From an uncultured Clostridia bacterium (GTDB lineage Bacteria > Bacillota > Clostridia > Christensenellales > Borkfalkiaceae), in assembly GCA_947626105.1 (NCBI GenBank), contig CANQQY010000007.1, forward strand, positions 1 to 64,000: a stretch of DNA of 64,000 nucleotides. The letters are read 5' to 3'. Shown here piece by piece: positions 1,955-54,086 of the stretch. Both the position numbers and the translations under genes were made by a program. A model generated the notes under the pieces. That model was not told the origin of the DNA, made no database searches, and saw only the letters and a list, made by a program, of their open reading frames with translations. Within the stretch, counting starts at the first letter, position 1. Each line of letters begins with the position of its first letter.

Positions 1955-2116
1955 GCGGGCAAAAAAATAAGGACGCTCCGATCACGGAACGCCCGCATGA
2001 GTATCCCGTGATTGTTGCGACACAATTGCGATTTCCAAACATTTCATTACGGAAAAAAGGATACACCTATGCCCGTTGTAGCCCTCATGAAATGTTTTTA
2101 TTCAATTGTGCCGCAA
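1955..2116 (-). promoter_or_regulatory. Structured attenuator-like 5' leader
   Basis: Read leftward, the leader starts with a long imperfect hairpin: outer arms 2103-2116 and 2015-2028 (13 of 14 pairs), middle arms 2087-2097 and 2037-2047 (11 pairs), and inner arms 2077-2083 and 2059-2065 (one mismatch). A terminator follows, with arms 1985-1994 and 1971-1980, loop TGAT, then TTATTTTTTT. The ATCACGG segment at 2006-2012 can pair with 1981-1987, which would break the terminator stem. This is the layout of a riboswitch or protein-controlled attenuator. I do not recognise it as a known class, and a palindromic element that happens to lie here is the alternative. Confidence 0.6.
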
Positions 2117-2120
2117 ATTC

Positions 2121-2149
2121 AGTATAACACCAAATACGGGAAAAATCAA
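2121..2149 (-). promoter_or_regulatory. Sigma-A type promoter for the LRR lipoprotein
   Basis: Read leftward, a -35 of TTGATT (2144-2149) and a -10 of TATACT (2121-2126) are separated by 17 bases, with a TG one base before the -10 (extended -10). Transcription should begin near 2112-2118, exactly at the first arm of the structured leader. That gives a leader of about 185 nt before the ATG at 1930. Confidence 0.7.
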
Positions 2150-2218
2150 TCAAAATCTTATTTTTTCTTCCGCGCACCCGAATTTCTTTGCGGGCGAGCG
2201 GCTTGACGTGATTGGAAG

Positions 2219-2435
2219 CATGCCCCCCTCAGTCACCTGTGGTGACAGCTCCTCCTTGGGAGGAGCCATTCAGCCCCCTCCGTGGGGGAGGAGCGGCGTC
2301 ATTCTCCTCAACAGCCCGATGGGCTGTGAGGGACGCCGCGACAGGAGGCGTGGCCTCGCCGACGGGGTTGCGGCGGTCCCTGCCGCCGCAACGGACTAAG
2401 GGGGTGGGGCGAGTATATATCACTCTTCCCTGCCG
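2219..2435. repeat. Palindromic repeats between clpX and the LRR gene
   Basis: Starts with a family A unit (cccctcagtcacctg followed by tggtgacagctcc) and continues with several further GC-rich stem-loops. No gene is credible here; the open frames across it are by-products of the palindromes. Bases 2150-2218 hold nothing recognisable apart from the region upstream of the promoter. Confidence 0.65.
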
Positions 2436-2438
2436 CAC

Positions 2439-2467
2439 AAAAAAAGCTCTCCCGAAAGGGAGAGCCA
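2439..2467 (-). terminator. Terminator of tig-clpP-clpX
   Basis: Read leftward, GCTCTCCC-TTTC-GGGAGAGC is followed by TTTTTTTG, six bases after the clpX stop codon. A perfect eight-pair stem plus U-tract makes this a strong intrinsic terminator for the operon. Confidence 0.9.
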
Positions 2468-2472
2468 AGCGT

Positions 2473-3705
2473 TTACGCGGATTTTTTATATACAAGCCGC
2501 GGTTTTGCGCCGTCCGTCACGCAGTCGCGGGTAATGATGACTTCCTCGACGTTCTTCTCGGACGGGATATCGAACATCACGTCGATCATGAGCCCCTCAA
2601 TGATCGTCCTAAGTCCCCTTGCGCCCGTCTTTAAGCGGATCGCGGTATTTGCGATCTCGCGCACTGCGCCGTCCTCAACGGTGAGTTTCACCCCGTCCAG
2701 CCCCACGAGCTTCTGATATTGCTTGATGATCGCGTTCTTGGGCTTGGTGAGGATGCTCACGAGGGCGTCCTCGTCGAGCGCCTGCAAGCTCACGACGATG
2801 GGAATACGCCCCACAAATTCGGGAATGAGCCCGAACTTTGTGAGATCCTGCGGTTTGACGTCCTCGAGAAGGGTATAGTCGACGTCCTTCTCCCCGAGCT
2901 TTACCTTGCCGCCGAAGCCGAGCCCCGAATCGTCCTTCCTTGCGGAGACGATCTTATCGAGCCCCACGAACGCGCCGCCGCAGATAAAGAGGATATTCGT
3001 CGTGTCGATCCGCATGCAGTCCTGCTGGGGGTGCTTTCTCCCGCCCTGCGGGGGGACGTTGGCGACGGTGCTCTCGATGATTTTGAGGAGCGCCTGCTGC
3101 ACGCCTTCGCCCGAGACGTCCCGCGTGATGGAGACGTTCTCCCCCTTCCGCGCGATCTTGTCGATCTCGTCGATATAGATGATCCCCCTCTGCGCCTTTT
3201 CGATGTCGTAATCGGCGTTCTGGATGAGTTTCAAGAGGATATTTTCGACGTCCTCTCCGACGTAACCCGCTTCGGTGAGCGTCGTCGCGTCCGAGGTTGC
3301 AAAGGGCACGTTGAGGATCTTGGCGAGCGTACGCGCGAGGAGCGTCTTGCCGCTTCCCGTGGGACCCAAAAGAAGAATATTGCTCTTTTCGATCTCCACG
3401 TCGTCGCTTTTGAGCCCTTCCGCCATCGCATTGATGCGCTTATAGTGATTGTAGACGGCGACGGAGAGGACGCGCTTCGCCTTGTCCTGCCCGATGATAT
3501 ATTTATCGAGCTCCTCTTTGATCTCCGTGGGTTTTTTGAGTTCGACCTTCTCCGCGGGCATGGAGGACGGGGTCTTGTCGAGCATATCCCGGCAGAGCTC
3601 CACGCACTCGTCGCAGATAAAGATCCCCTCGGGACCCGCGATGAGTTTTTTTGTTTTCGCCTTCTCCTTCCCGCAGAAGGAACAGCGTTGTTCGTATTTT
3701 GCCAT
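2473..3705 (-). CDS. clpX: ClpX, ATPase subunit of the ClpXP protease
   Basis: A 410-residue AAA+ unfoldase that recognises tagged or damaged proteins and threads them into ClpP. The N-terminal zinc-binding domain has Cys8, Cys11, Cys31 and Cys34. Walker A is GPTGSGKT (114-121), the pore loop is GYVG (147-150), and Walker B is IIYIDEID (175-182). The C-terminal small AAA domain ends at residue 410, the usual length. It is the last gene after tig and clpP, so folding and degradation functions are transcribed together, and a strong terminator follows directly. It is separated from clpP by 485 bases of dispersed repeats, an unusually long gap for this operon. Confidence 0.98.
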
Positions 3706-3772
3706 ATAAACTCCTGTTTTTGAAACCCCTCAGTCACCTGCGGTGACAGCTCCCCTATGAGGGGCGCCAAGG
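3706..3772. repeat. Family A palindromic repeat upstream of clpX
   Basis: After the clpX ribosome-binding site (AGGAG) comes cccctcagtcacctg-cggtgacagctcccc-tatgaggggcgcc, two adjacent hairpins. The unit is nearly identical to those at 10789-10840 and 51393-51490. Confidence 0.7.
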
Positions 3773-3884: not shown

Positions 3885-4185
3885 TTCTAAATTACTTGCC
3901 TTAGGCGGAATTCACTTCCGCCGTGGGCGACTCAATTTGTCGAACCCCTTCGACTTAATGTAATTGCAAAGCGATATTCGCAGTGACTTGATTGATGCAC
4001 AGGGAAGGTTCCTCGTTCATTTCTTTTCGAAGCCCTGCGAGATTTCTCGACTCCGCTTCGCTCCGCTACTTCGCACTTCGTGCTCGTGCCGCCCTTGGTG
4101 CACAATAGAAGTGCGGGCGGGGCGAAATGACGGAATAGGCGCGCGTCCGCGGGGCGAGCAAAGAAATGAACGAAATCAATCGAGC
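3885..4185. repeat. Composite hairpin repeat (family C) at the clpP 3' end
   Basis: The element has, in order, an inner stem GGCGGAA/TTCCGCC, a GTCGAA-CCCC-TTCGAC hairpin, a GCGA/TCGC stem, and then a terminal pairing between ctcgttcatttctt (4011-4024) and aagaaatgaacga (about 4160-4173). Its right end lies about 10-20 bases past the clpP stop codon. The terminal loop is enlarged by about 130 bases of another palindromic repeat. Nothing coding is visible. Confidence 0.65.
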
Positions 4186-4190
4186 GAAAT

Positions 4191-4781
4191 TTACCGTGTG
4201 GTATAGACCTTATCAATCAGTCCGTACTCCATTGCCTCGTCTGCGGTGAGATAGTTATCCCTGTCCGTGTCGCGGGCGATCACCTCGTAGGGTTTCCCCG
4301 TGTTTTCGGAAAGGATCTTCGTCATCTTATCCTTGATACGGAGAATATGCTCCGCCTGGATCTTAATATCGCTCGCCTGACCCTGCGCGCCGCCGAGGGG
4401 CTGGTGGATCATAATCTCGCTGTTTTTGAGCGCATACCGCTTGCCCTTCGCGCCCGCCGCGAGGAGAAACGCCCCCATGGACGCCGCAAGCCCGATACAG
4501 ATGGTGGAAACGTCGCATTTGATATAGTTCATCGTATCGTAGATCGCCATGCCCGCGGAAACGGATCCCCCGGGGCTGTTGATATACAGGCTTACGTCTT
4601 TCCCGGGATCCTTGCCTTCAAGATAGATGAGCTGTGCGACGACGGTATTGGCAAGCGCGTCGTCGATCTCGCCCGAGAGGAAGATGATCCTGTCCTCCAA
4701 AAGGCGGGAATAGAGATCGTAACTGCGCTCGCCGCTCGACGTGCGCTCTACAACATAGGGAATGAGGACGTTGTTCGTCAT
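4191..4781 (-). CDS. clpP: ClpP, serine protease subunit of ClpXP
   Basis: A 196-residue protease that assembles into the two-ring degradation chamber used by ClpX. The catalytic triad is Ser101 (in GLAASMG), His126 (in [10 protein letters not shown]) and an Asp in the segment DTDRD (171-175). The oxyanion-forming stretch SPGGSV is at 69-74. Length and order match the family. The start has AAGGAGAGACCTC before the ATG. The gene starts 17 bases after tig, so the two are certainly co-transcribed. Confidence 0.98.
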
Positions 4782-4798
4782 GAGGTCTCTCCTTAAAG

Positions 4799-6115
4799 TT
4801 ACTCTGCCTTGGGCTCTTCTTTATAGGCGACCATCTCGTTGTTTGCGAGAAGGAAGTCAAAGAGCTTGGTGATACGAATGTCGTTTTCGATGTATTCGCG
4901 CTGGCGGGGATCGAGCGTCTTTTCATATTCCGCGGGCTCCTTGCCGACGGAAGCCGCCTGCTCGGCGATCTTTGCCGCGATCTCTTCCTCGCTCGCCGTG
5001 ATGTGCTCGACGTCCAGAAGTTTTTCGATGATGAGCTGGTGCAGCACCGACGTGTGCGCCTCTTGTTCGAAATTCTTCTTGTATGCGTCGCGCGTCGTGC
5101 CGATATAGTTATAATAATCCTCCGCACGGATACCCTGATACATCAGGTTCTGTTCGAGCCTGCGCACGGACATCTCTTCCTGCCGTTCGATGAGCGCGTC
5201 GGGGATCTCCGCGGAAGCGGTCTTGGCGATCTCGGTGAGGATGGAATTTTCGGTCTCGTTGCGGGCACGGTTCTCGGCGTTCTTTTCGAGACGCTCGCGC
5301 ACCTTCGCCTTGTAGGCGTCGAGGTTGTCCGAGCCCAGCTTCTTCGCAAGCTCGTCGTCGAGCGCGGGAAGCTCCTTCCCCGTGATCTTATGCAGGGTCA
5401 CGGTGAACACGGCGGGCTTGCCTTTGAGGTTTTCCGCCTGGTAATCTTCGGGGAATACGACGTCGATATCGCGCGTCTCGCCGATCGTCATGCCGGCGAC
5501 CGCTTCCTCGAACCCGGGGATAAAGCTGTGGGAACCGAGTTCGAGATCGTGCCCCTTTGCGGAGCCGCCTTCAAACTCCTTCCCGTCCATCTTGCCCACA
5601 AAGTCGATGTTTACGACGTCGCCCATCGCGGCGGGACGGTCGGTGACGTCCACGCTCTTTGCGATGCGTTCGCGGGTCGCTTGGATATCCGCGTCCACGT
5701 CGGCGTCCGTAACAGTATACTCATATTTGTTGATTTTTATACCCTTGTACTGCCCGATGGCAACGTCGGGTTTTACAGGCACCGTCGCGATCAAAACGAC
5801 GTTCTCTTCCGAGAAATTCTCGCCGAGGGAGAGTTCGGGCTCCCCGACCGCGGTGAAGTTGTCCTTCTCCTTTTCGAGGATCGCGTCGTAGTGCTCCTGA
5901 TAGAGAAGGTTGAGCGCTTCCTCATAAAAGAGCGCCTTGCCGTAGTACATTTCGAGCACCGCCTTGGGCGCCTTGCCCTTGCGGAAGCCGTTGACCGTAT
6001 AGCGCTTTCTGTTCTGCACATACGCCTTTTGGTTCGCCTCCGCCCATTCTTCGGGCGTGAAGGTGATCTCCACCTTGACTGTGCTCTTTTCTGCGGGTGT
6101 CACTTTGTAATCCAT
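4799..6115 (-). CDS. tig: Trigger factor, ribosome-associated chaperone and prolyl isomerase
   Basis: A 438-residue chaperone that binds the ribosome exit tunnel near L23 and shields nascent chains. Its N-terminal ribosome-binding domain contains [14 protein letters not shown] (about residues 42-55), the family signature. An FKBP-type isomerase domain (about 150-245; [19 protein letters not shown] is split across its start) and a helical C-terminal chaperone domain follow. I place the start at 6115, where AGGAG precedes ATG-GAT-TAC; an upstream in-frame ATG lacks a ribosome-binding site. It leads the tig-clpP-clpX operon and is divergent from rqcH, pairing nascent-chain folding with ribosome quality control. 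Confidence 0.96.
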
Positions 6116-10691: not shown

Positions 10692-11027
10692 CAATGATTC
10701 TCCAAAGCGGAACGCGGTGGATAACGCGGATGCCTCTCGCTTCCCCTCTTAGGGGAAGTGGCGAACATCGTGAGCCAAAGGGGTTTCTAAAACCCCTCAG
10801 TCACCTGCGGCGACAGCTCCCCTAAAAGGGGCGCCAAGGCAACCCCCACCTGTCGCGCTACGCGCGCCACCTCTCTCACGCGGATAGAGACCCGCGTTCG
10901 GTCACCGTTCGCGCGAAATAATGCGCTCACTCCTGTCGCAACGCGCCAAAGATTATCAATCTTTGGCAGAACGCGTTGCTCCACCCCTTCAAAGGGGGCG
11001 GGTCCCCCTAAAAGGGGAGCCGATTCG
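10692..11027. repeat. Family A and B repeats between two convergent flippase genes
   Basis: Family A occupies about 10789-10840. Family B (about 10845-11020) runs from acccccacctgtcgcgc through cggtcaccgttcgcgcg and caacgcgccaaagatt to gttgctccaccccttc. Family B recurs at 31255-31430, 32985-33200, 40826-40960, 44625-44750 and 51670-51835, in either orientation. No gene is present. Confidence 0.7.
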
Positions 11028-22505: not shown

Positions 22506-25500
22506 TTATTGTTCCCTTTTTGTCCAAGTGTTGCTCGGGTCTTTCAAAGCGTTGGCAACGTCGGCGGGGTTGTCAAAACTCGGCGTGACGTCATATCCGT
22601 AGTGATCCGTCACCGTCCAGCCCGTATCGGCGAAGGTCGCTTCGGTCAAAGGATCGTCCCAAAACGCGCTCTTCCCGATCTCTTTTACGCTCGCGGGGAT
22701 CGTAACGCTCGTAAGCTCATGATTGAGAGCAAAGGCGTTTTCCCCGATGTGTTCTACCTTCTCGCCGAGCGCAAGGCTCGTAACGCCGCTTTGATAGAAC
22801 GCATAATCCCCGATATATGTGACATTCCCGGGAATGACGACCGCCCCGATGCCTACGCCCGCCGTCTCGTTCTTTGCAAACGCCCAATCGCCGATTTTCT
22901 CCACATTCTCGCCGAGTGTGAGGCTCTGGATCGTGCAAGATTCAAACGCGTGCGCGCCGATCTCCTTCACGGACGACGCGATCGTAACATTTGTGAAGAT
23001 CTTCCCCGAGAAAGCGTAGTCGCCGATCTTGTCGACGCCCTCGCCGATCGTACCGTAACCGTACGGCACCGTGCCGAGGATGAGCGTATTTGTTGCAATT
23101 TCAACGACGCCGCAATCTCTTACCTCGTAGGCAGAATTCCCCGCCGCCACCACGTAGTGGGAAAGATTGCCGTTCATGCCGAATGCCGTAGGGTCGATCT
23201 TTGTGACCGTCGAGGGAAGATGCAGCTCCTGCGTCGAGATATTCCAGAACGCGTACGCCTTGATTTCCGTCACGCCCTCGGGAATGGTGAGGATCGCCCC
23301 TCCGTTGCTGATTTCCGTCTCATTCTCACCCGCATGCGGGGCGGCGTAGATCGCCGCCGACTCCCACCGAAGCGGGTTCGCCCCATCGTCCGCAAAGTCT
23401 ATCTCGCACCACTTTGCAAGGTCTCTGATATGGTATGTGACGGAAACGTAGTACGGAGCCATCGCGCCGAAAAACGCCGATGCACCGACCGTTTTCAACC
23501 CCGTGCCGAGGGTGAGATCGGTAAAGGTCCCGCAGCTCATAAAAGCACGCTCGCCGATCTCCTCCACGCTGTCGGGAATGACGAACGTCGCGGAAAGCGG
23601 GATTTCGCGGAACACGTTGGCGGGAATGATCCTGATGCCGTCGGGGATCTGCGTTGCGGGGCAGCCGAGGGCAACGCTCATCGCCGTCTTATCGTAGACG
23701 CAGTTGGTCTCTGCGGCAAACGTTTGGTTCCCCGCCGCCACGGTGAGCGATGTGACGTTTTTGCATTCCATGAGCGCGCCTGCGCCGATTCTACTCACGT
23801 CCTTTCCGATTTGGACGGAATTCAGTTTCGCATATCCCGCAAAGGCGAGCGGTTTGAGCTCGGTGACGCCGTCGGGAATGATGACATCGGTCACGGGCGA
23901 ATCGTTCACATAGAGCGTTGCATTCGGCGCAGAGAGCGGATTGGTGCCCGCAACGAATTGCTCGGACGCAAACTCGATGGCAAGCCACCGTGTAAGGGAG
24001 GAAATGTTCACCGTTTGAATGGCGCTGCACCCGTCAAAGGCATATTCGCCGATCTTTTGGATGCCATTGCCGAAGGTCACCGTTTTGAGCGCCTTGCAGC
24101 CGTCGAACGCGCTGTGTTCGATCTCCGTCAAAGCGTCGTGGAAAATAGCCTCTTGGAGCAAAACGCAATTCTCAAATGCCCGATAGCGGATCTTCTTCAA
24201 GTGTTCACCGAAGGTCACGCTTGCAAGATTTTGGCATCCGCTGAACGCATATTCCTGCACGAACTTTGTGTCCGTATCCATCACAACGGAACTGATATTC
24301 GTATTCTCCGCGCCCACAAGCACGGTATAGGGGTGCTCCGTGTTGCCGAGGTACTTCACGCCGTCCTTCCGATTGTATTGAAGAGAAGGGCACCCGCCGA
24401 AAGGATCGTCGCCGATGTCGGCAATGTTGTTCCCGACGTTGAAGTTCGTAAGCTCGGAGCAACCGTAAAAGACAAAGTCGCCGAAGGAGATCTCCCCATT
24501 GCCGAGTGTAACGTCGGTAAGAGCGGGGCAGGAATTCACGGCATACGCGTCAAAGACGAGGTTACCGTTACCGACCGTCAAGTCGGTGAGCGCTTGGCAG
24601 CCCCATAGCGCGGCATAACCGAAATTTATGTTTCCCTCGCCCGCCGTGAAATGCTCCAAAGAACAGTTGCGGAAGGCATATTCGCCAATCTCCACGTTGC
24701 CGTCCCCGATGACGATATCGGTGAGAGCCTGGCAGTTCCAGACGAAATCCGTCCCGAGAACGACGTCCCCGTCACCGATCGTGATGGTTTCCAGCTTCGC
24801 GCAGCCTTGGAAGGTATAGGCTCCGATGGAGATATCCCCATCGCCGAAGTCAACGCCGGTAAGAGATGCGCATTGGAAGAAGCCGCCCTGCGCAATTTCA
24901 ATGTCGCTCCCCCCAAACGTAAGCGTTTTCAGCTCTGTACAGCCCTGAAACGCCCAATCCCCGATCGTCACCTTTCCGCTGCCGAACGTGACGTCGGTGA
25001 GCGCCGCACAGCGGAAGAATCCTCCCTGTGCAATCTCAATCTCGCCGTCGCCGATCGTGAGCGTTTCAAGCATCGTACAATCCTGGAACGCCCATTGTCC
25101 GATCGTGACCTTCCCGCCGCCAAAAGTGACATCGGTGAGAGACGGGCTGAAAAGGAAGCTCTCCCGACCGATATTGACCGTGCCCTCGCCGACGGTGAGC
25201 GTTTTCAGTTTCGCACAATTTTGGAATACATATTTTCCGATCGACACCGAACCGCCTTCGATCGTCACCGCTTCTACACCCGAACAACCGTAGAAGGCGT
25301 AATCGAAAATGCCGATCGCACCGCTGCCGATATTCACCGTCTCCATGCTTTCGCAACCGTAGAAAGCGTATTTGTCGATAACCGTCACGCTGTCGGGAAT
25401 GGTCACGCTCTTCAAAGCGGTATAGCCGAACGCGCAGTAGCCGATGCGAGCGACGTTTTTGCCGAATACGACCTCTTCGAGCGCCTTTCCGACTTCCTTG

Positions 25501-26324
25501 CTATCCCCGCGGAATGCATTCCCCGCGACCGCGGTAACGGGTTTGCCCTCGTATGTATCGGGAATGACGATCTTGGTAAGGGTCTGATTGCTCGCCCCCG
25601 TCACGGTGTAGCCGCCGTCGTCGTTTTCGGAATAGGTGAGCGAAGTCGTGCCGTCCGCGTGCCAATGGCAGACGGAACACTCGTAGTCGTTCACGATCGT
25701 GTGCGGCGCCTCGCTGCCTTCCTGTTTGTCTCCGCAACGGGTGCAGGCATAGTAATGCACGCTGTCATCCGAAGCGTAATGCGTCTCATCGTAACTGTGT
25801 CCGAGCGCGCCCGTTTGGGCGGGACGGGTGTCCGTCTCCGTGCAACGGGTGCAGTGCGCCGTCTCGGTGCCGTTCTCCGTGCACGTCGCGTCCCCGTTGG
25901 GGGTGTACGTCTCGAAGTTATGCCCGAGTTTACTCCCCGTGATCGTTCGCGTGTCCGTCTCCGTGCAGCCGTCATGCGTGCAATGCGCCGTCTCCGTGCC
26001 GTCCTCGGTACACGTCGCGTCGCCGTTGGGAATGTATGTCTCGAAGTTATGTCCGAGTTTGCTGCCTTGCGCCGTTCGCGTGTCCGTCTCCGTGCAACCG
26101 TCATGCGTGCAATGCGCCGTCTCCGTGCCGTCCTCGGTGCATGTCGCGTTTCCGTCGGAGATGTAGTCCGTAAATGTATGCTCATGCGGTTCTTCTCCGC
26201 CCGGTTGGGTCTGGGTGCCGCCCGTGGGTTCCTGAGGCGTCCCGTCATCGCATGCGGCAAGCCCGAAGCACAGGCACAGAGCCGCGGCAAGCATCAACAG
26301 CACTGTCAAAAATTTGCGTTTCAT
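22506..26324 (-). CDS. Giant BspA-like LRR lipoprotein with Cys-rich N-terminal repeats
   Basis: A 1272-residue surface lipoprotein. The signal peptide ends in the lipobox FGLAAC. Residues about 50-190 hold three tandem repeats of about 40 residues with the pattern ATCTEDGTETAHCTHDGCTE, the third shortened, then HYYACTRCGD and YECSVCHWH, all suggesting small metal or disulfide modules. From about residue 230 to the end there are dozens of LRR_5 repeats with alternating consensus (ALTDVTFGSGKVTIGDWAF type). In BspA relatives these mediate adhesion to host or other bacteria. I start at 26324, where AAGGGAG precedes the ATG; the upstream in-frame ATG is unsupported. It occupies the place where rimM-trmD-rplS often follow rpsP-khpA. 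Confidence 0.88.
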   Translation of the reverse strand: MKRKFLTVLLMLAAALCLCFGLAACDDGTPQEPTGGTQTQPGGEEPHEHTFTDYISDGNATCTEDGTETAHCTHDGCTETDTRTAQGSKLGHNFETYIPNGDATCTEDGTETAHCTHDGCTETDTRTITGSKLGHNFETYTPNGDATCTENGTETAHCTRCTETDTRPAQTGALGHSYDETHYASDDSVHYYACTRCGDKQEGSEAPHTIVNDYECSVCHWHADGTTSLTYSENDDGGYTVTGASNQTLTKIVIPDTYEGKPVTAVAGNAFRGDSKEVGKALEEVVFGKNVARIGYCAFGYTALKSVTIPDSVTVIDKYAFYGCESMETVNIGSGAIGIFDYAFYGCSGVEAVTIEGGSVSIGKYVFQNCAKLKTLTVGEGTVNIGRESFLFSPSLTDVTFGGGKVTIGQWAFQDCTMLETLTIGDGEIEIAQGGFFRCAALTDVTFGSGKVTIGDWAFQGCTELKTLTFGGSDIEIAQGGFFQCASLTGVDFGDGDISIGAYTFQGCAKLETITIGDGDVVLGTDFVWNCQALTDIVIGDGNVEIGEYAFRNCSLEHFTAGEGNINFGYAALWGCQALTDLTVGNGNLVFDAYAVNSCPALTDVTLGNGEISFGDFVFYGCSELTNFNVGNNIADIGDDPFGGCPSLQYNRKDGVKYLGNTEHPYTVLVGAENTNISSVVMDTDTKFVQEYAFSGCQNLASVTFGEHLKKIRYRAFENCVLLQEAIFHDALTEIEHSAFDGCKALKTVTFGNGIQKIGEYAFDGCSAIQTVNISSLTRWLAIEFASEQFVAGTNPLSAPNATLYVNDSPVTDVIIPDGVTELKPLAFAGYAKLNSVQIGKDVSRIGAGALMECKNVTSLTVAAGNQTFAAETNCVYDKTAMSVALGCPATQIPDGIRIIPANVFREIPLSATFVIPDSVEEIGERAFMSCGTFTDLTLGTGLKTVGASAFFGAMAPYYVSVTYHIRDLAKWCEIDFADDGANPLRWESAAIYAAPHAGENETEISNGGAILTIPEGVTEIKAYAFWNISTQELHLPSTVTKIDPTAFGMNGNLSHYVVAAGNSAYEVRDCGVVEIATNTLILGTVPYGYGTIGEGVDKIGDYAFSGKIFTNVTIASSVKEIGAHAFESCTIQSLTLGENVEKIGDWAFAKNETAGVGIGAVVIPGNVTYIGDYAFYQSGVTSLALGEKVEHIGENAFALNHELTSVTIPASVKEIGKSAFWDDPLTEATFADTGWTVTDHYGYDVTPSFDNPADVANALKDPSNTWTKREQ
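25790..26165 (-). repeat. In-frame tandem DNA repeats coding Cys-rich modules
   Basis: Roughly 125-130-base units repeat inside the giant LRR gene, with long stretches identical between copies (for example gtgtccgtctccgtgca and cacgtcgcgtc-ccgttggg). The last unit in the protein lost a HDG triplet. Such repeats can change copy number by recombination without breaking the reading frame. Confidence 0.75.
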
Positions 26325-26351
26325 TGTGTTCTCCCTTTGGGTTTTGTCGGG

Positions 26352-26377
26352 CAAAAATAAGGACGTTCATCGCGTCC
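26352..26377 (-). promoter_or_regulatory. Possible leader terminator of the giant LRR gene
   Basis: Read leftward, GGACG-CGATGAA-CGTCC-TTATTTTTG lies 28 bases before the ATG. The last part, CGTCCTTATTTTTGCCCG, matches the leader of the other LRR gene (1956-1974) apart from T-run length. A short ATGCC-ACGGAA-GGCAT hairpin precedes it. The stem has only five pairs, so termination is less certain than in the first leader. I found no clear promoter between the khpA terminator and this site. Confidence 0.4.
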
Positions 26378-26774: not shown

Positions 26775-27295
26775 CCGCCGATCAGCGGCCGACAGGGCTT
26801 AGAGATGTTGCAACTTAACCACCTCGCAAGCCACCGCACGCTTACTGTCTTTGAAAGCAATATGGTCGGCGGCCGACGGGACTTAGAGATATTGCAACTT
26901 AACCCCTCGTATAATTCTTTTCCAAAAAAATTTTACGAAACAAGGCTTCAAAATCCTTGCGCGAGCGGGGTCTCCCTGCGCTGCGCGCCCCCATTTGCTA
27001 AGCCACCGCACGCTTACTGTCTTTGAGGACAATACAATCAGCGGCCGACAGGGCTTAGAGATATTGCAACTTGACCCCTCGTAAAATTCTTTTTCCAAAA
27101 AAGAATTTTACGAAACAAGGCTTCCAAATCCTTGCGCGAGCAGGGTCTCCCTGCGCTGCGCGCCCCCATTTGCTAAGCCACCGCACGCTTACTGTCTTTG
27201 AGGACAATAAAGTCGGCGGCCGACGGGGCTTAGAGATGTTGCAACTTGACCCCTCGTAAAATTCTTTTTCCAAAAAAGAATTTTACGAAACGATT
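26775..27295. repeat. Tandem array of family C composite hairpin repeats
   Basis: Three successive copies with a period of about 170-175 bases fill the gap between khpA and rpsP. Each complete copy carries gcgagcagggtct-ccctgcgctgcgc, then ttgctaagccaccgcacgc-ttac, cggcggccga, and finally ctcgtaaaattctttttcc-aaaaaagaattttacgaaac (27078-27116 and 27252-27290; a degenerate copy at 26906-26940). The last hairpin ends six bases after the rpsP stop codon. The first copy is partial. Apparent small ORFs here only trace the repeat. Confidence 0.85.
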
Positions 27296-27929: not shown

Positions 27930-28130
27930 ATGCCCTTCGTTCCAAATTACTGCGCGAAGCAAAACCACGCTTTTGCGGCAGCGCACTCAATTTGTCGAAC
28001 CCCTTCGACTTAATGTCGTGACAAGCGACCGCGACAGTGACTCAATATCCCAAAAATGTCACTTTCCTCGTTGAATTTGTTTTTGAGCATGCGCCCCATA
28101 GGCGCAGACGAAAAAACAAATTCAACGAAA
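27930..28130. repeat. Family C composite hairpin repeat at the ffh 3' end
   Basis: Successive stems are TGCGC...GCAAAA/TTTTGC...GCGCA, GTCGAA-CCCC-TTCGAC, AGTGAC/GTCACT, and a terminal hairpin (28067-28128) with arms ctcgttgaatttg and caaattcaacga and inner arms atgcgcc and ggcgca. On the mRNA strand the terminal hairpin begins four bases after the ffh stop. Bases 27818-27929 hold further GC-rich palindromes and no gene. Confidence 0.75.
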
Positions 28131-31134: not shown

Positions 31135-31430
31135 GCCGGGAAGCCCCCCGACAGGGTGAGAACAGAGGATCTTGTCGCCCTATGAAGGGCGACAAGGGTT
31201 CGGACTCCGTTCTTCGGGATCCTTCACATTCGTTCAGGATGACGCGGGGGCGTCCGCGGAGTCTTGCCTGCCCCCTTTTCAAGGGGTGGAGCAACGCGCC
31301 AAAGATTGGTAATCTTTGGCGCGTTGCGACAGGAGTGAGCGCATCAGAGGCGCGAACGGTGACCGAACGTGGGTCTCTACCCGCGTGAGATAGGTGGCGC
31401 GCGAAGCGCGACAGGTGGGGGTTCGTTCAA
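31135..31430. repeat. Family A, E and B repeats after the island
   Basis: Family A lies at about 31147-31200 and family E at about 31198-31250 (ctccgttcttcggga-tccttc...aggatgacgc). Family B, in reverse orientation to 10845-11020, lies at about 31255-31430. None is coding. Confidence 0.7.
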
Positions 31431-31640
31431 AATTCACTTGCCTTAGGCGGAATTTACTTCCACCGCCCCGCGCGCATTCTATTGCACTAAGCGCGGCACG
31501 AGCCCGCAAGGCGAAGTAGGGCGACTCAATTTGGCACCCTACGGGAGCCTTACTGTCCTGTGAAACAGAAAGAGGGCGGCCGAACCGCTTTTACAAGGCA
31601 AAAATCTTAACCCCTCGCTCGATTTTATTTTTGAAGGACA
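31431..31640. repeat. Truncated family C composite repeat
   Basis: Has the first modules (cttgccttaggcggaat and ggcaccctacgggagcc, then cggccgaaccgc). It ends after the left arm of the terminal hairpin (ctcgctcgatttta), where a different GC-rich repeat begins and runs to about 31724. Confidence 0.65.
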
Positions 31641-31724: not shown

Positions 31725-31926
31725 CCTTTGTTCTAAATTACTGCGCGTGGCAGGGTCTCCCTGCCTAAGCGCACTCAATTTGGTACCCTACGGGAACCTT
31801 AATGTCGTGTGAAAAAGAACAGGGACGGCCGAATCGTAATTACAAGGCAGAAGCCTTAACCCCTCGCTCGTATTTATTTTTGAGCACGCGCCCACAAGGC
31901 GCGGACGAAAAAAGAAATCGAGCGAA
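31725..31926. repeat. Family C composite repeat at the ftsY 3' end
   Basis: Modules are TGCGC...GGCAGGG-TCT-CCCTGCC...GCGCA, GGT-ACCCTACGGGA-ACC, AAGGC-AGAA-GCCTT, and a terminal hairpin 31863-31925 with arms ctcgctcg/cgagcga and inner arms cacgcgcc/ggcgcg. The arms differ from the ffh, smc and infA copies yet stay paired. The hairpin begins seven bases after the ftsY stop. Confidence 0.75.
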
Positions 31927-31932
31927 ACACTC

Positions 31933-33204: not shown

Positions 33205-33412
33205 TGTAGTCGCCCTTTATTCCAATTTACGGTGCGAGGCGGGTTTCCCGCCGCTGCACGCCCCCATTTGGCACCCTACGGGAGCCTTACTGTCCTGTGA
33301 AACAGAAAGTCGGCGGCCGAATTGCATATACAAGGCAAGAGAATTAACCCCTCGTTGAATTTATTTTTGAGCATGCGCCCCAAGGCGCAGACGAAAAAAG
33401 AAATTCAACGAA
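33205..33412. repeat. Family C composite repeat at the smc 3' end
   Basis: The clearest full copy. Modules are GTGC-GAGGCGGG-TTT-CCCGCCGCT-GCAC (about 33232-33268), GGC-ACCCTACGGGA-GCC, CGGCGGCCGA, and a terminal hairpin 33351-33411 with arms ctcgttgaattt/aaattcaacga and inner atgcgcc/ggcgca. The hairpin begins six bases after the smc stop codon. Confidence 0.8.
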
Positions 33413-33417
33413 AAAAA

Positions 33418-51384: not shown

Positions 51385-51835
51385 TACAGATCCCCTCGGC
51401 TCCCCTCACAGGAGAGCTGTCACCGCAGGTGACTGAGGATCTTGGCTCCCCTCTTAGGGGAGCTGTCACCGCAGGTGACTAAGGGGTTTTGAGGGAAACC
51501 CTATCCCCCGCTACGCGGGGACTTCCCCTACAAGGGGAAGCAAGGGGTGCAGCTGCGCGGGGACTTCCCCTAAGAGGGAAAGCAAGGATCGGACTGCGTT
51601 CTTCGGGATCCTTCCCCTTCGGCTACGCTCAGGGTCAAGATGACGCGGTAGACGGCAAGCCTTTCCATGACCTGCCCCCTTTCGAAGGGGTGGAGCAACG
51701 CGTCCTGCCAAGGGTTGATAATCTTTGGCGCGTTGCGACAGGAGTGAGCGCATTCTCTCGCGCGAACGGTGACCGAACGCGGGTCTCTACCCGCGTGAGA
51801 TAGGTGGCGCGCAAAGCGCGTCAGGTGGGGGTTTA
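51385..51835. repeat. Family A, E and B repeats between infA and rpmJ
   Basis: Two family A units at 51393-51490, further hairpins to about 51590, family E at 51590-51650 and family B in reverse orientation at 51670-51835. No gene is present; this splits an otherwise tight operon. Confidence 0.7.
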
Positions 51836-52034
51836 ATCCTAATTTACTTGCCTTAGGCGGAATTCACTTCCGCCGTGGGCGACCCAATTTGCCGAACCCC
51901 TTCGGCTTATTGCCGTGTGAAACAGAAGGGTAGCGGCCGAATCGCAATTACAAGGCAGAAGCCTTAACCCCTCGTTGAATTTATTTTTGAGCATGCGCCC
52001 AAAAGGCGCAGACGAAAAAAGAAATTCAACGAAA
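51836..52034. repeat. Family C composite repeat at the infA 3' end
   Basis: Modules are GGCGGAA-TTCAC-TTCCGCC, GCCGAA-CCCC-TTCGGC, AAGGC-AGAA-GCCTT, and a terminal hairpin 51971-52032 with arms ctcgttgaattt/aaattcaacga and inner atgcgcc/ggcgca. The second stem is GCCGAA/TTCGGC here but GTCGAA/TTCGAC at clpP and ffh, a compensatory pair change. Confidence 0.78.
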
Positions 52035-52036
52035 AA

Positions 52037-53656: not shown

Positions 53657-53860
53657 TATTTCGTTTGATTTCTTTTCTCGTCTGCGGCTTTCTGCCGCAT
53701 GCTCGAAAATAAATCAAACGAGGAATTTAACTTTTTTGGAATATCAAGTTGCGGCTCGATTCCGCTCGCCCCGACATGAAGCCTACGGTGGTGTGGCGAA
53801 TGGGGGCGTGCAGCGGCGGGTGGCGACCCGCCTCGCACCATGATTTGTACAGGAAGGACT
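53657..53860. repeat. Inverted family C composite repeat in the adk leader
   Basis: The terminal hairpin (53659-53722) has arms tcgtttgatttc/aaatcaaacga and inner arms tgcggc/gccgca; both differ from other copies but pair fully. Moving toward secY come a GCGAGCGG...CCGC stem and GTGCGAGGCGGGT/ACCCGCCGCTGCAC. Here the hairpin lies just upstream of a start codon, not after a stop codon. Confidence 0.75.
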
Positions 53861-54086
53861 CCGTTTATCGGGTTCCTTCGGGCTTTGCCCTCAGGATGAC
53901 GCCGGTAGCGCACTTGGCGCCCCTTTCAGGGGAGCTGTCACGCGCCCTTGCGTGACTGAGGGGTTTCTGAAACCCTATCCCCCGCTACGCGGGTACTTCC
54001 CCTAAGAGGGGAAGCAAGGAACCCCTTTCCCCCTCGGAACCCCCCAAAGGGGTAGGGCTTGGGGACGAGCAAAGAAATGAACGAAA
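53852..54086. repeat. Family E and A repeats and family C right-end remnant after secY
   Basis: Family E is at 53855-53905 and family A at 53918-53975, followed by more hairpins. Bases 54064-54084 (gacgagcaaagaaatgaacg) match the right arm of the clpP copy, but no left arm is present, so this copy looks broken by later insertion. Confidence 0.6.

Follow-up and report, generated by a model that had tools for sequence, protein, structure and literature searches.

What kind of element lies behind the smc gene in the stretch of DNA shown above? The stretch (the window) comprises positions 1 to 64,000 of contig C7 of the genome G000, which is 94% complete. A preliminary description had seen, in a set of multi-hairpin copies, a sign that a folded form is under selection or is what propagates. 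It had offered a structured RNA, a 3'-UTR element and a mobile element of REP/IS200 type as explanations. The results presented here suggest that the copies probably form a genus-specific, dispersed and non-autonomous repeat family, which resembles BOX elements and BIMEs and in which hairpin modules are exchanged between copies.

Architecture of the element

The repeat unit is non-coding, spans about 170-200 nt and contains three hairpins with interchangeable sequence. Read 5' to 3' on the sense strand, a full copy opens with hairpin A, which is followed by some 60 nt of linker B, then by hairpin C, the motif AAATTGRG, the bipartite hairpin D and the tail ATTTGGAAC. The shared hairpin plan had been recognised in the preliminary description, but the order had not: hairpin A, there called terminal, comes first on the sense strand, next to the stop codon of the upstream gene.

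Hairpin A is laid out as TTTCG-arm ... arm'-CGAGG, with arms of many paired sequence types (CGTTGAATTT, CGCTCGATTT, CGAACGATTT, CGCACAATTC, CGGCGAAAATC and others). Hairpin C occurs in a 16-nt type, with a 6-bp stem and a 4-nt loop, and in a 17-nt type, with 3+3 bp and a mismatch; about 46 distinct sequences of it were found. The A arms quoted earlier (TTGAATTT/AAATTCAA, GCTCG/CGAGC, TTTGATTT/AAATCAAA and TAAAATTC/GAATTTTA) are correct, as are the C stems GTCGAA, GCCGAA, GGC and GGT with their partners. Across all loci, a contingency comparison shows that C types and D types combine freely, as in a modular composite of the BOX kind.

With respect to terminal inverted repeats, the start of the element, (TG)TTTCG, and its end, ATTTGGAAC, pair only over a few bases, as judged by eye. 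A GTAG or CGTC tag beside a palindrome of 20-40 nt was not found. The foot of hairpin A is TTTCG/CGAGG in most copies, no constant GTAG tag is seen there, and CGTC, read from the sequence, is present only inside some A hairpins and missing from other A types.

Copies in the window

All copies listed in the preliminary description are present at about the positions given there. The C-D core was also cast into a covariance model (R1), which independently recovers nine copies, at 3885, 27940, 33219, 31427, 31731, 27121, 26946 and 51837 on the minus strand and at 53767 on the plus strand. The gene names used here (smc, ffh, ftsY, infA, secY, adk, rpsP, clpP) were read from translations and gene order, not from a database search. 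The sense strand is the minus strand for every copy in the window except the one at 53657, for which it is the plus strand.

The originally reported copy behind smc (33212-33413, minus) begins a few nucleotides past the smc stop codon (33418) and contains hairpin A (33349-33413), linker B, C GGCTCCCGTAGGGTGCC, D4 and the tail (R1 match 33219-33300). The copy behind ftsY (31728-31927, minus; R1 31731-31812) has the A arm CGCTCGATTT, C GGTTCCCGTAGGGTACC and D2. In a partial copy at 31427-31640 (minus; R1 31427-31563), A is interrupted by another repeat and D carries an insert of about 50 nt (D5). The copy behind ffh (27935-28130, minus; R1 27940-28023) combines A CGTTGAATTT with an alternative linker B2, C GTCGAAGGGGTTCGAC and D3.

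Behind rpsP, there is a tandem array on the minus strand. Its first copy (27118-27291; R1 27121-27202) has A CGTAAAATTC, C CGTGCGGTGGCTTAGC and D7, the second (26943-27116; R1 26946-27027) is 95% identical to the first, and the third (26775-26942) is truncated and accompanied by a duplicated linker fragment. The three copies counted here before are thus two complete ones and a truncated one. The copy behind clpP (3885-4172, minus; R1 3885-3968; A CGTTCATTTC, C GTCGAAGGGGTTCGAC, D1) exists as previously listed, but the loop of its hairpin A holds an insert of about 130 nt. In the ribosomal-protein operon, the copy behind infA (infA-rpmJ spacer, 51837-52036, minus; R1 51837-51920; A CGTTGAATTT, C GCCGAAGGGGTTCGGC, D1) starts adjoining the TAG stop codon. 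The reversed copy lies in the secY-adk spacer (53657-53851, plus; R1 53767-53851; A CGTTTGATTT, C GCCTACGGTGGTGTGGC, D4), where its A end adjoins the Shine-Dalgarno region of adk; a near species has the same modules. Directly past the secY stop codon, the sequence can be read as a remnant of the 5' arm of a hairpin A (54060-54086, minus).

At least four further intergenic repeat families (CCCCTCAGTCACCTGCGGTGACAGCTCCCC; GCGTCATCCTGAG...; GCGTTGCGACAGGAGTGAGCGCAT; CCCACCTGACGCGCTTCGCGCGCCACC) are found in the window, at 3722-3772, 10789-10839, 51428-51489, 53900-54019 and elsewhere. They occupy the same spacers, nest mutually, and also start right after stop codons in relatives. Large ORFs at 22506-26354 and 176-1930, with a repeated GATCTCCGTCACGCCCTCGGGGAT-type unit on the minus strand, probably encode leucine-rich-repeat (BspA-like) surface proteins.

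Folding and covariation

The claim that the arms change yet stay paired is borne out. Of the 624 stem cells in a set of 39 distinct sequences, drawn from many species, 98.7% pair, compared to 87.2% in shuffles. Seven pairs are altered on both sides, and 57 cells carry double changes, against 13.9 in shuffles; none of 500 shuffles reaches the observed values. Pairing is lost when the partner column is slid by 1-3 positions. Of 241 C hairpins, 110 have a partner arm for hairpin A upstream; in shuffled controls, 2 of 227 do. The fold z-scores are -4.9 for the infA copy as RNA and -5.2 for the smc copy as DNA. Very strong covariation backs the view that a folded form is under selection or is being propagated. 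Many of the 'compensatory' differences are whole-hairpin swaps between copies and not paired point mutations: both arms change together because whole hairpins are replaced at conserved sites. True two-sided changes occur as well, beside these swaps.

Family size and range

With a 206-nt DNA query, about 60 copies were found in G000 (1.64 Mb, 32 contigs). The DNA search gave a match in 23 of the 37 congeneric genomes, G000 counted among them; 24 genomes that represent other families in the order gave none. The search with R1, a covariance analysis of the kind envisaged in the preliminary description, covered 121 genomes of the order and gave matches only in this genus of bacteria from the rabbit gut (3 of 5 sampled genomes, against 0 of the 116 others). 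A scan of 85,000 species genomes with a D-hairpin pattern returned, among the matches listed, which set no bound on the range, only uncultured Clostridia that belong to a single MAG set from the rabbit gut ('Lapin'). The element was not found in the viral contigs, phages and plasmids searched. That it matches no known class holds for Rfam 15, in which the window has no match at the gathering threshold and two copies searched at E<=5 give only irrelevant weak ones. In the literature search, no description of the repeat was found, and the papers bear out no more than the comparison with BOX and REP.

The genomes are metagenome assemblies, at least some of them from short reads, in which repeats can be mis-joined. 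Four contigs of G000 end inside or near copies of the element (C3 at its end, C12 at its start, C18 at its end, C29 at its start), and the repeats thus probably break the assembly.

Placement at gene ends

Enough flank was available for 83 non-tandem copies, and 50 of them start no more than 20 nt, mostly 0-7 nt, past the stop codon of a frame on the same strand. For random positions, the figure is 99 of 2200 (4.5%); the counts rest on open frames of at least 100 codons rather than on curated annotation. Another 15 of the 83 are reversed and lie just ahead of a divergent start, a situation that the same loose test assigns to 434 of 2200 random positions. A few copies sit directly after the T-tract of a terminator. 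Hairpin A faces the gene, and copies form head-to-tail arrays. Simple scans detected neither a terminator at hairpin A nor a promoter in the copies. Since other repeat families of the genus also start right after stop codons, part of the preference may come from a filter that leaves the leader of the following gene intact.

Comparison between related species

Some orthologous spacers in 40 stretches from relatives are near-minimal, others filled; the lengths are 31-606 nt for ffh-rpsP, 6-1118 nt for smc-ftsY, 14-1472 nt for rpsP-KH and 39-683 nt for infA-rpmJ. At the genes concerned, a copy is missing from many congeners. Spacers inside core operons are involved (secY-adk, infA-rpmJ, ffh-rpsP, rpsP-KH), so that the 3' flanks of many genes are new when one close species is compared with another.

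G159 (contigs CANRIY, Lapin-024 bin61), a near species, has flanking coding DNA that is mostly 90-97% identical to that of G000. About 24 of about 29 orthologous sites are occupied in both, a fraction that is biased upward, as for 16 of these sites the G159 loci were fetched for holding the element; of the 13 that were located through the flank only, about 8 hold a copy. Occupancy is thus largely common to the two species, so that new insertions are not frequent. It is also far above the few per cent that would result (our estimate) from independent draws of about 50 sites out of roughly 1600 genes, which argues that most sites are old and have been rewritten, not hit anew. Only about three of the 24 or so doubly occupied sites have A, C and D unchanged, with modules scored partly by eye. 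As the hairpins change but stay folded, and close relatives differ at the same sites, this is a fast-evolving repeat family.

The clearest case is the pair L025 and L170, in which both coding flanks and the C-D-tail part are homologous, but A and B are unrelated. In L014 and L135, there is one copy against three, the two tandem copies that are additional in G159 relative to G000 being on the gene side. Both comparisons have homologous unique DNA on both sides, which speaks against mis-joining. Arrays also differ in size between G007 and G006, with 1 against 3 copies in infA-rpmJ and 1 against 5 in rpsP-KH, and tandem copies are up to 97-99% identical. Between G006 and G007, an infA copy is 94.7% identical, whereas fourfold sites of ffh and ftsY differ by 26-29%; its identity could reflect selection for a host function, perhaps at mRNA 3' ends.

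A filled and an empty site with both flanks conserved were not found among the loci compared, and no target duplication was seen. The best candidate for an empty site (L007 against L304) was rejected because the downstream gene differs, and the second (L003 against L301) because it runs off the contig end. Between hairpins C and D of three loci (L012:1658; L029, minus, 1657; L008, minus, 1834), there is an additional structured repeat (GAGCGGCGCAATTCTGCTCAACAG...CTGTGAGCTGCGCCGC...), apparently inserted at one fixed point.

Search for a mobilizer

The element has no gene of its own, and no autonomous partner was found. The TnpA-REP-like transposase proposed earlier was sought without success, as G000 has no match to Y1_Tnp (PF01797). 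Matches are present in 10 of 41 genomes of the genus and absent from the other 31, which include most carriers; a Y1 transposase thus does not track the element and is not supported as its mobilizer. The same holds for a reverse transcriptase: RVT_1 (PF00078) has matches in 7 of the 41 genomes, and the seven RT-bearing loci examined contain no R1 match. In G000, the reverse transcriptase sits in a prophage-like region, in an apparent diversity-generating cassette; the 5.5 kb examined there contain no element. This DGR-like cassette (L244, G000:C3:68500-74000) has an RT ORF at 2062-3636 that is preceded by an N-rich template repeat, which matches the end (SSCDWWERSVNADYSNDFC) of a 365-aa ORF at 4196-5293.

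Origin of the family

Among the explanations offered at the outset, a dispersed, probably non-autonomous mobile repeat fits best, because occupancy varies between species, tandem arrays are found and the family is restricted to one genus. Against it count the failure to find an autonomous partner, a terminal inverted repeat, a target duplication or a clean pair of filled and empty sites among the loci compared, the occupancy common to G000 and G159, the conserved infA copy and the possible mis-joining of repeats in metagenome assemblies. The REP/IS200 type is not supported. Hairpin ends, the intergenic location, the polar orientation, the tandem arrays and the apparent recognition of structure rather than sequence would all suit an element of REP/PATE type, moved by a Y1 (HUH) transposase that acts on single-stranded hairpins. 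The distribution of Y1_Tnp and the lack of a constant tag at the hairpin foot make this very unlikely. Even less credible is a retroelement relic, in which reverse transcription of a retron, group II intron or DGR RNA would have produced the copies: the unit is structured and is placed behind stop codons and terminators, but reverse transcriptases are rare in the genus, the one in G000 has no element nearby, and Rfam gives no match to a group II intron or retron.

It is tempting to regard the copies as cis-acting RNAs, that is 3'-UTR elements that would protect or process the mRNA of the preceding gene and would have been spread by recombination because the hosts profit. Most copies are indeed co-directional with that gene and start close to its stop codon, covariation is strong, and site occupancy is conserved while the sequence turns over. 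In hairpin C, G.T pairs are also in excess of A.C (11 against 3 distinct cases), but most of the G.T cases come from one lineage, and hairpin A lacks strand asymmetry (8 G.T, 9 A.C). The antisense copies at divergent starts, one of which is the window copy at 53657, the many congeners without a copy at the same genes, and the scans for terminators and promoters also speak against this reading, which we therefore consider unlikely.

For the preferred reading, a dispersed repeat family with exchange of hairpin modules, the following course may be envisaged. Copies would spread as a non-autonomous element that is recognised in a folded single-stranded form, DNA or RNA, by a putative enzyme. Resident copies might then be rewritten by ectopic recombination between dispersed copies, or by gain of copies on the gene side and subsequent collapse of the array. 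Exchange at the conserved linkers CGAGGGGTTAAG, AAATTGRG and ATTTGGAAC would swap a whole hairpin, so that both arms stay matched. A bolder and rather doubtful version is a structure-addressed system, in which a putative dedicated enzyme would place copies at gene ends and exchange whole hairpin cassettes between dispersed sites, a combinatorial shuffling that conserves the fold and not the sequence.

Relation to known repeat families

Interspersed repeats of bacteria are commonly defined by their sequence. In this family, the hairpin sequence is replaceable and the plan is kept. Because the plan is kept while the modules differ at most sites shared by two close species, the origin of compensatory change, by point mutation or block exchange, is directly testable in this family. 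It is also a warning that, in repeat families, covariation scores can stem from an exchange of cassettes and not from RNA function.

Integron attC sites are folded, sequence-variable sites directly behind stop codons, and the element described here is likewise folded, variable in sequence and found directly past stop codons. In contrast to attC sites, its neighbours are single housekeeping genes, and R-box motifs are not seen by eye. ERIC is one long palindrome, whereas the unit has three separate hairpins, and neither a terminal inverted repeat nor a target duplication, as in an ERIC/RU-type MITE, was seen. With these MITEs of enterobacteria (PMC2759123), it shares an intergenic location, a folded structure, the lack of an own gene, and the size range, which is 100-200 bp for the MITEs.

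REPs are 20-40 nt long and have a GTAG or CGTC tag (PMC3733652, PMC2817692). The REP/BIME and RAYT systems resemble the family in the abundance of extragenic palindromes, in mosaic combinations and in possible effects on mRNA (PMC3733652, PMC2817692). They differ from it in that the unit here is about 200 nt long, has three hairpins and no constant tag, and occurs in a genome without a Y1 transposase.

The BOX elements of Streptococcus pneumoniae, for which novel pneumococcal insertions arise at a relatively slow rate (PMC3049150), are also small, intergenic, non-coding and modular repeats, with variable tandem numbers, a folded structure and no gene of their own, and their flanking modules differ in other species (PMC3049150). 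No shared sequence is claimed. Unlike in BOX elements, every hairpin type is interchangeable and covarying here, the copies adjoin stop codons, and the modules differ at orthologous sites between close species.
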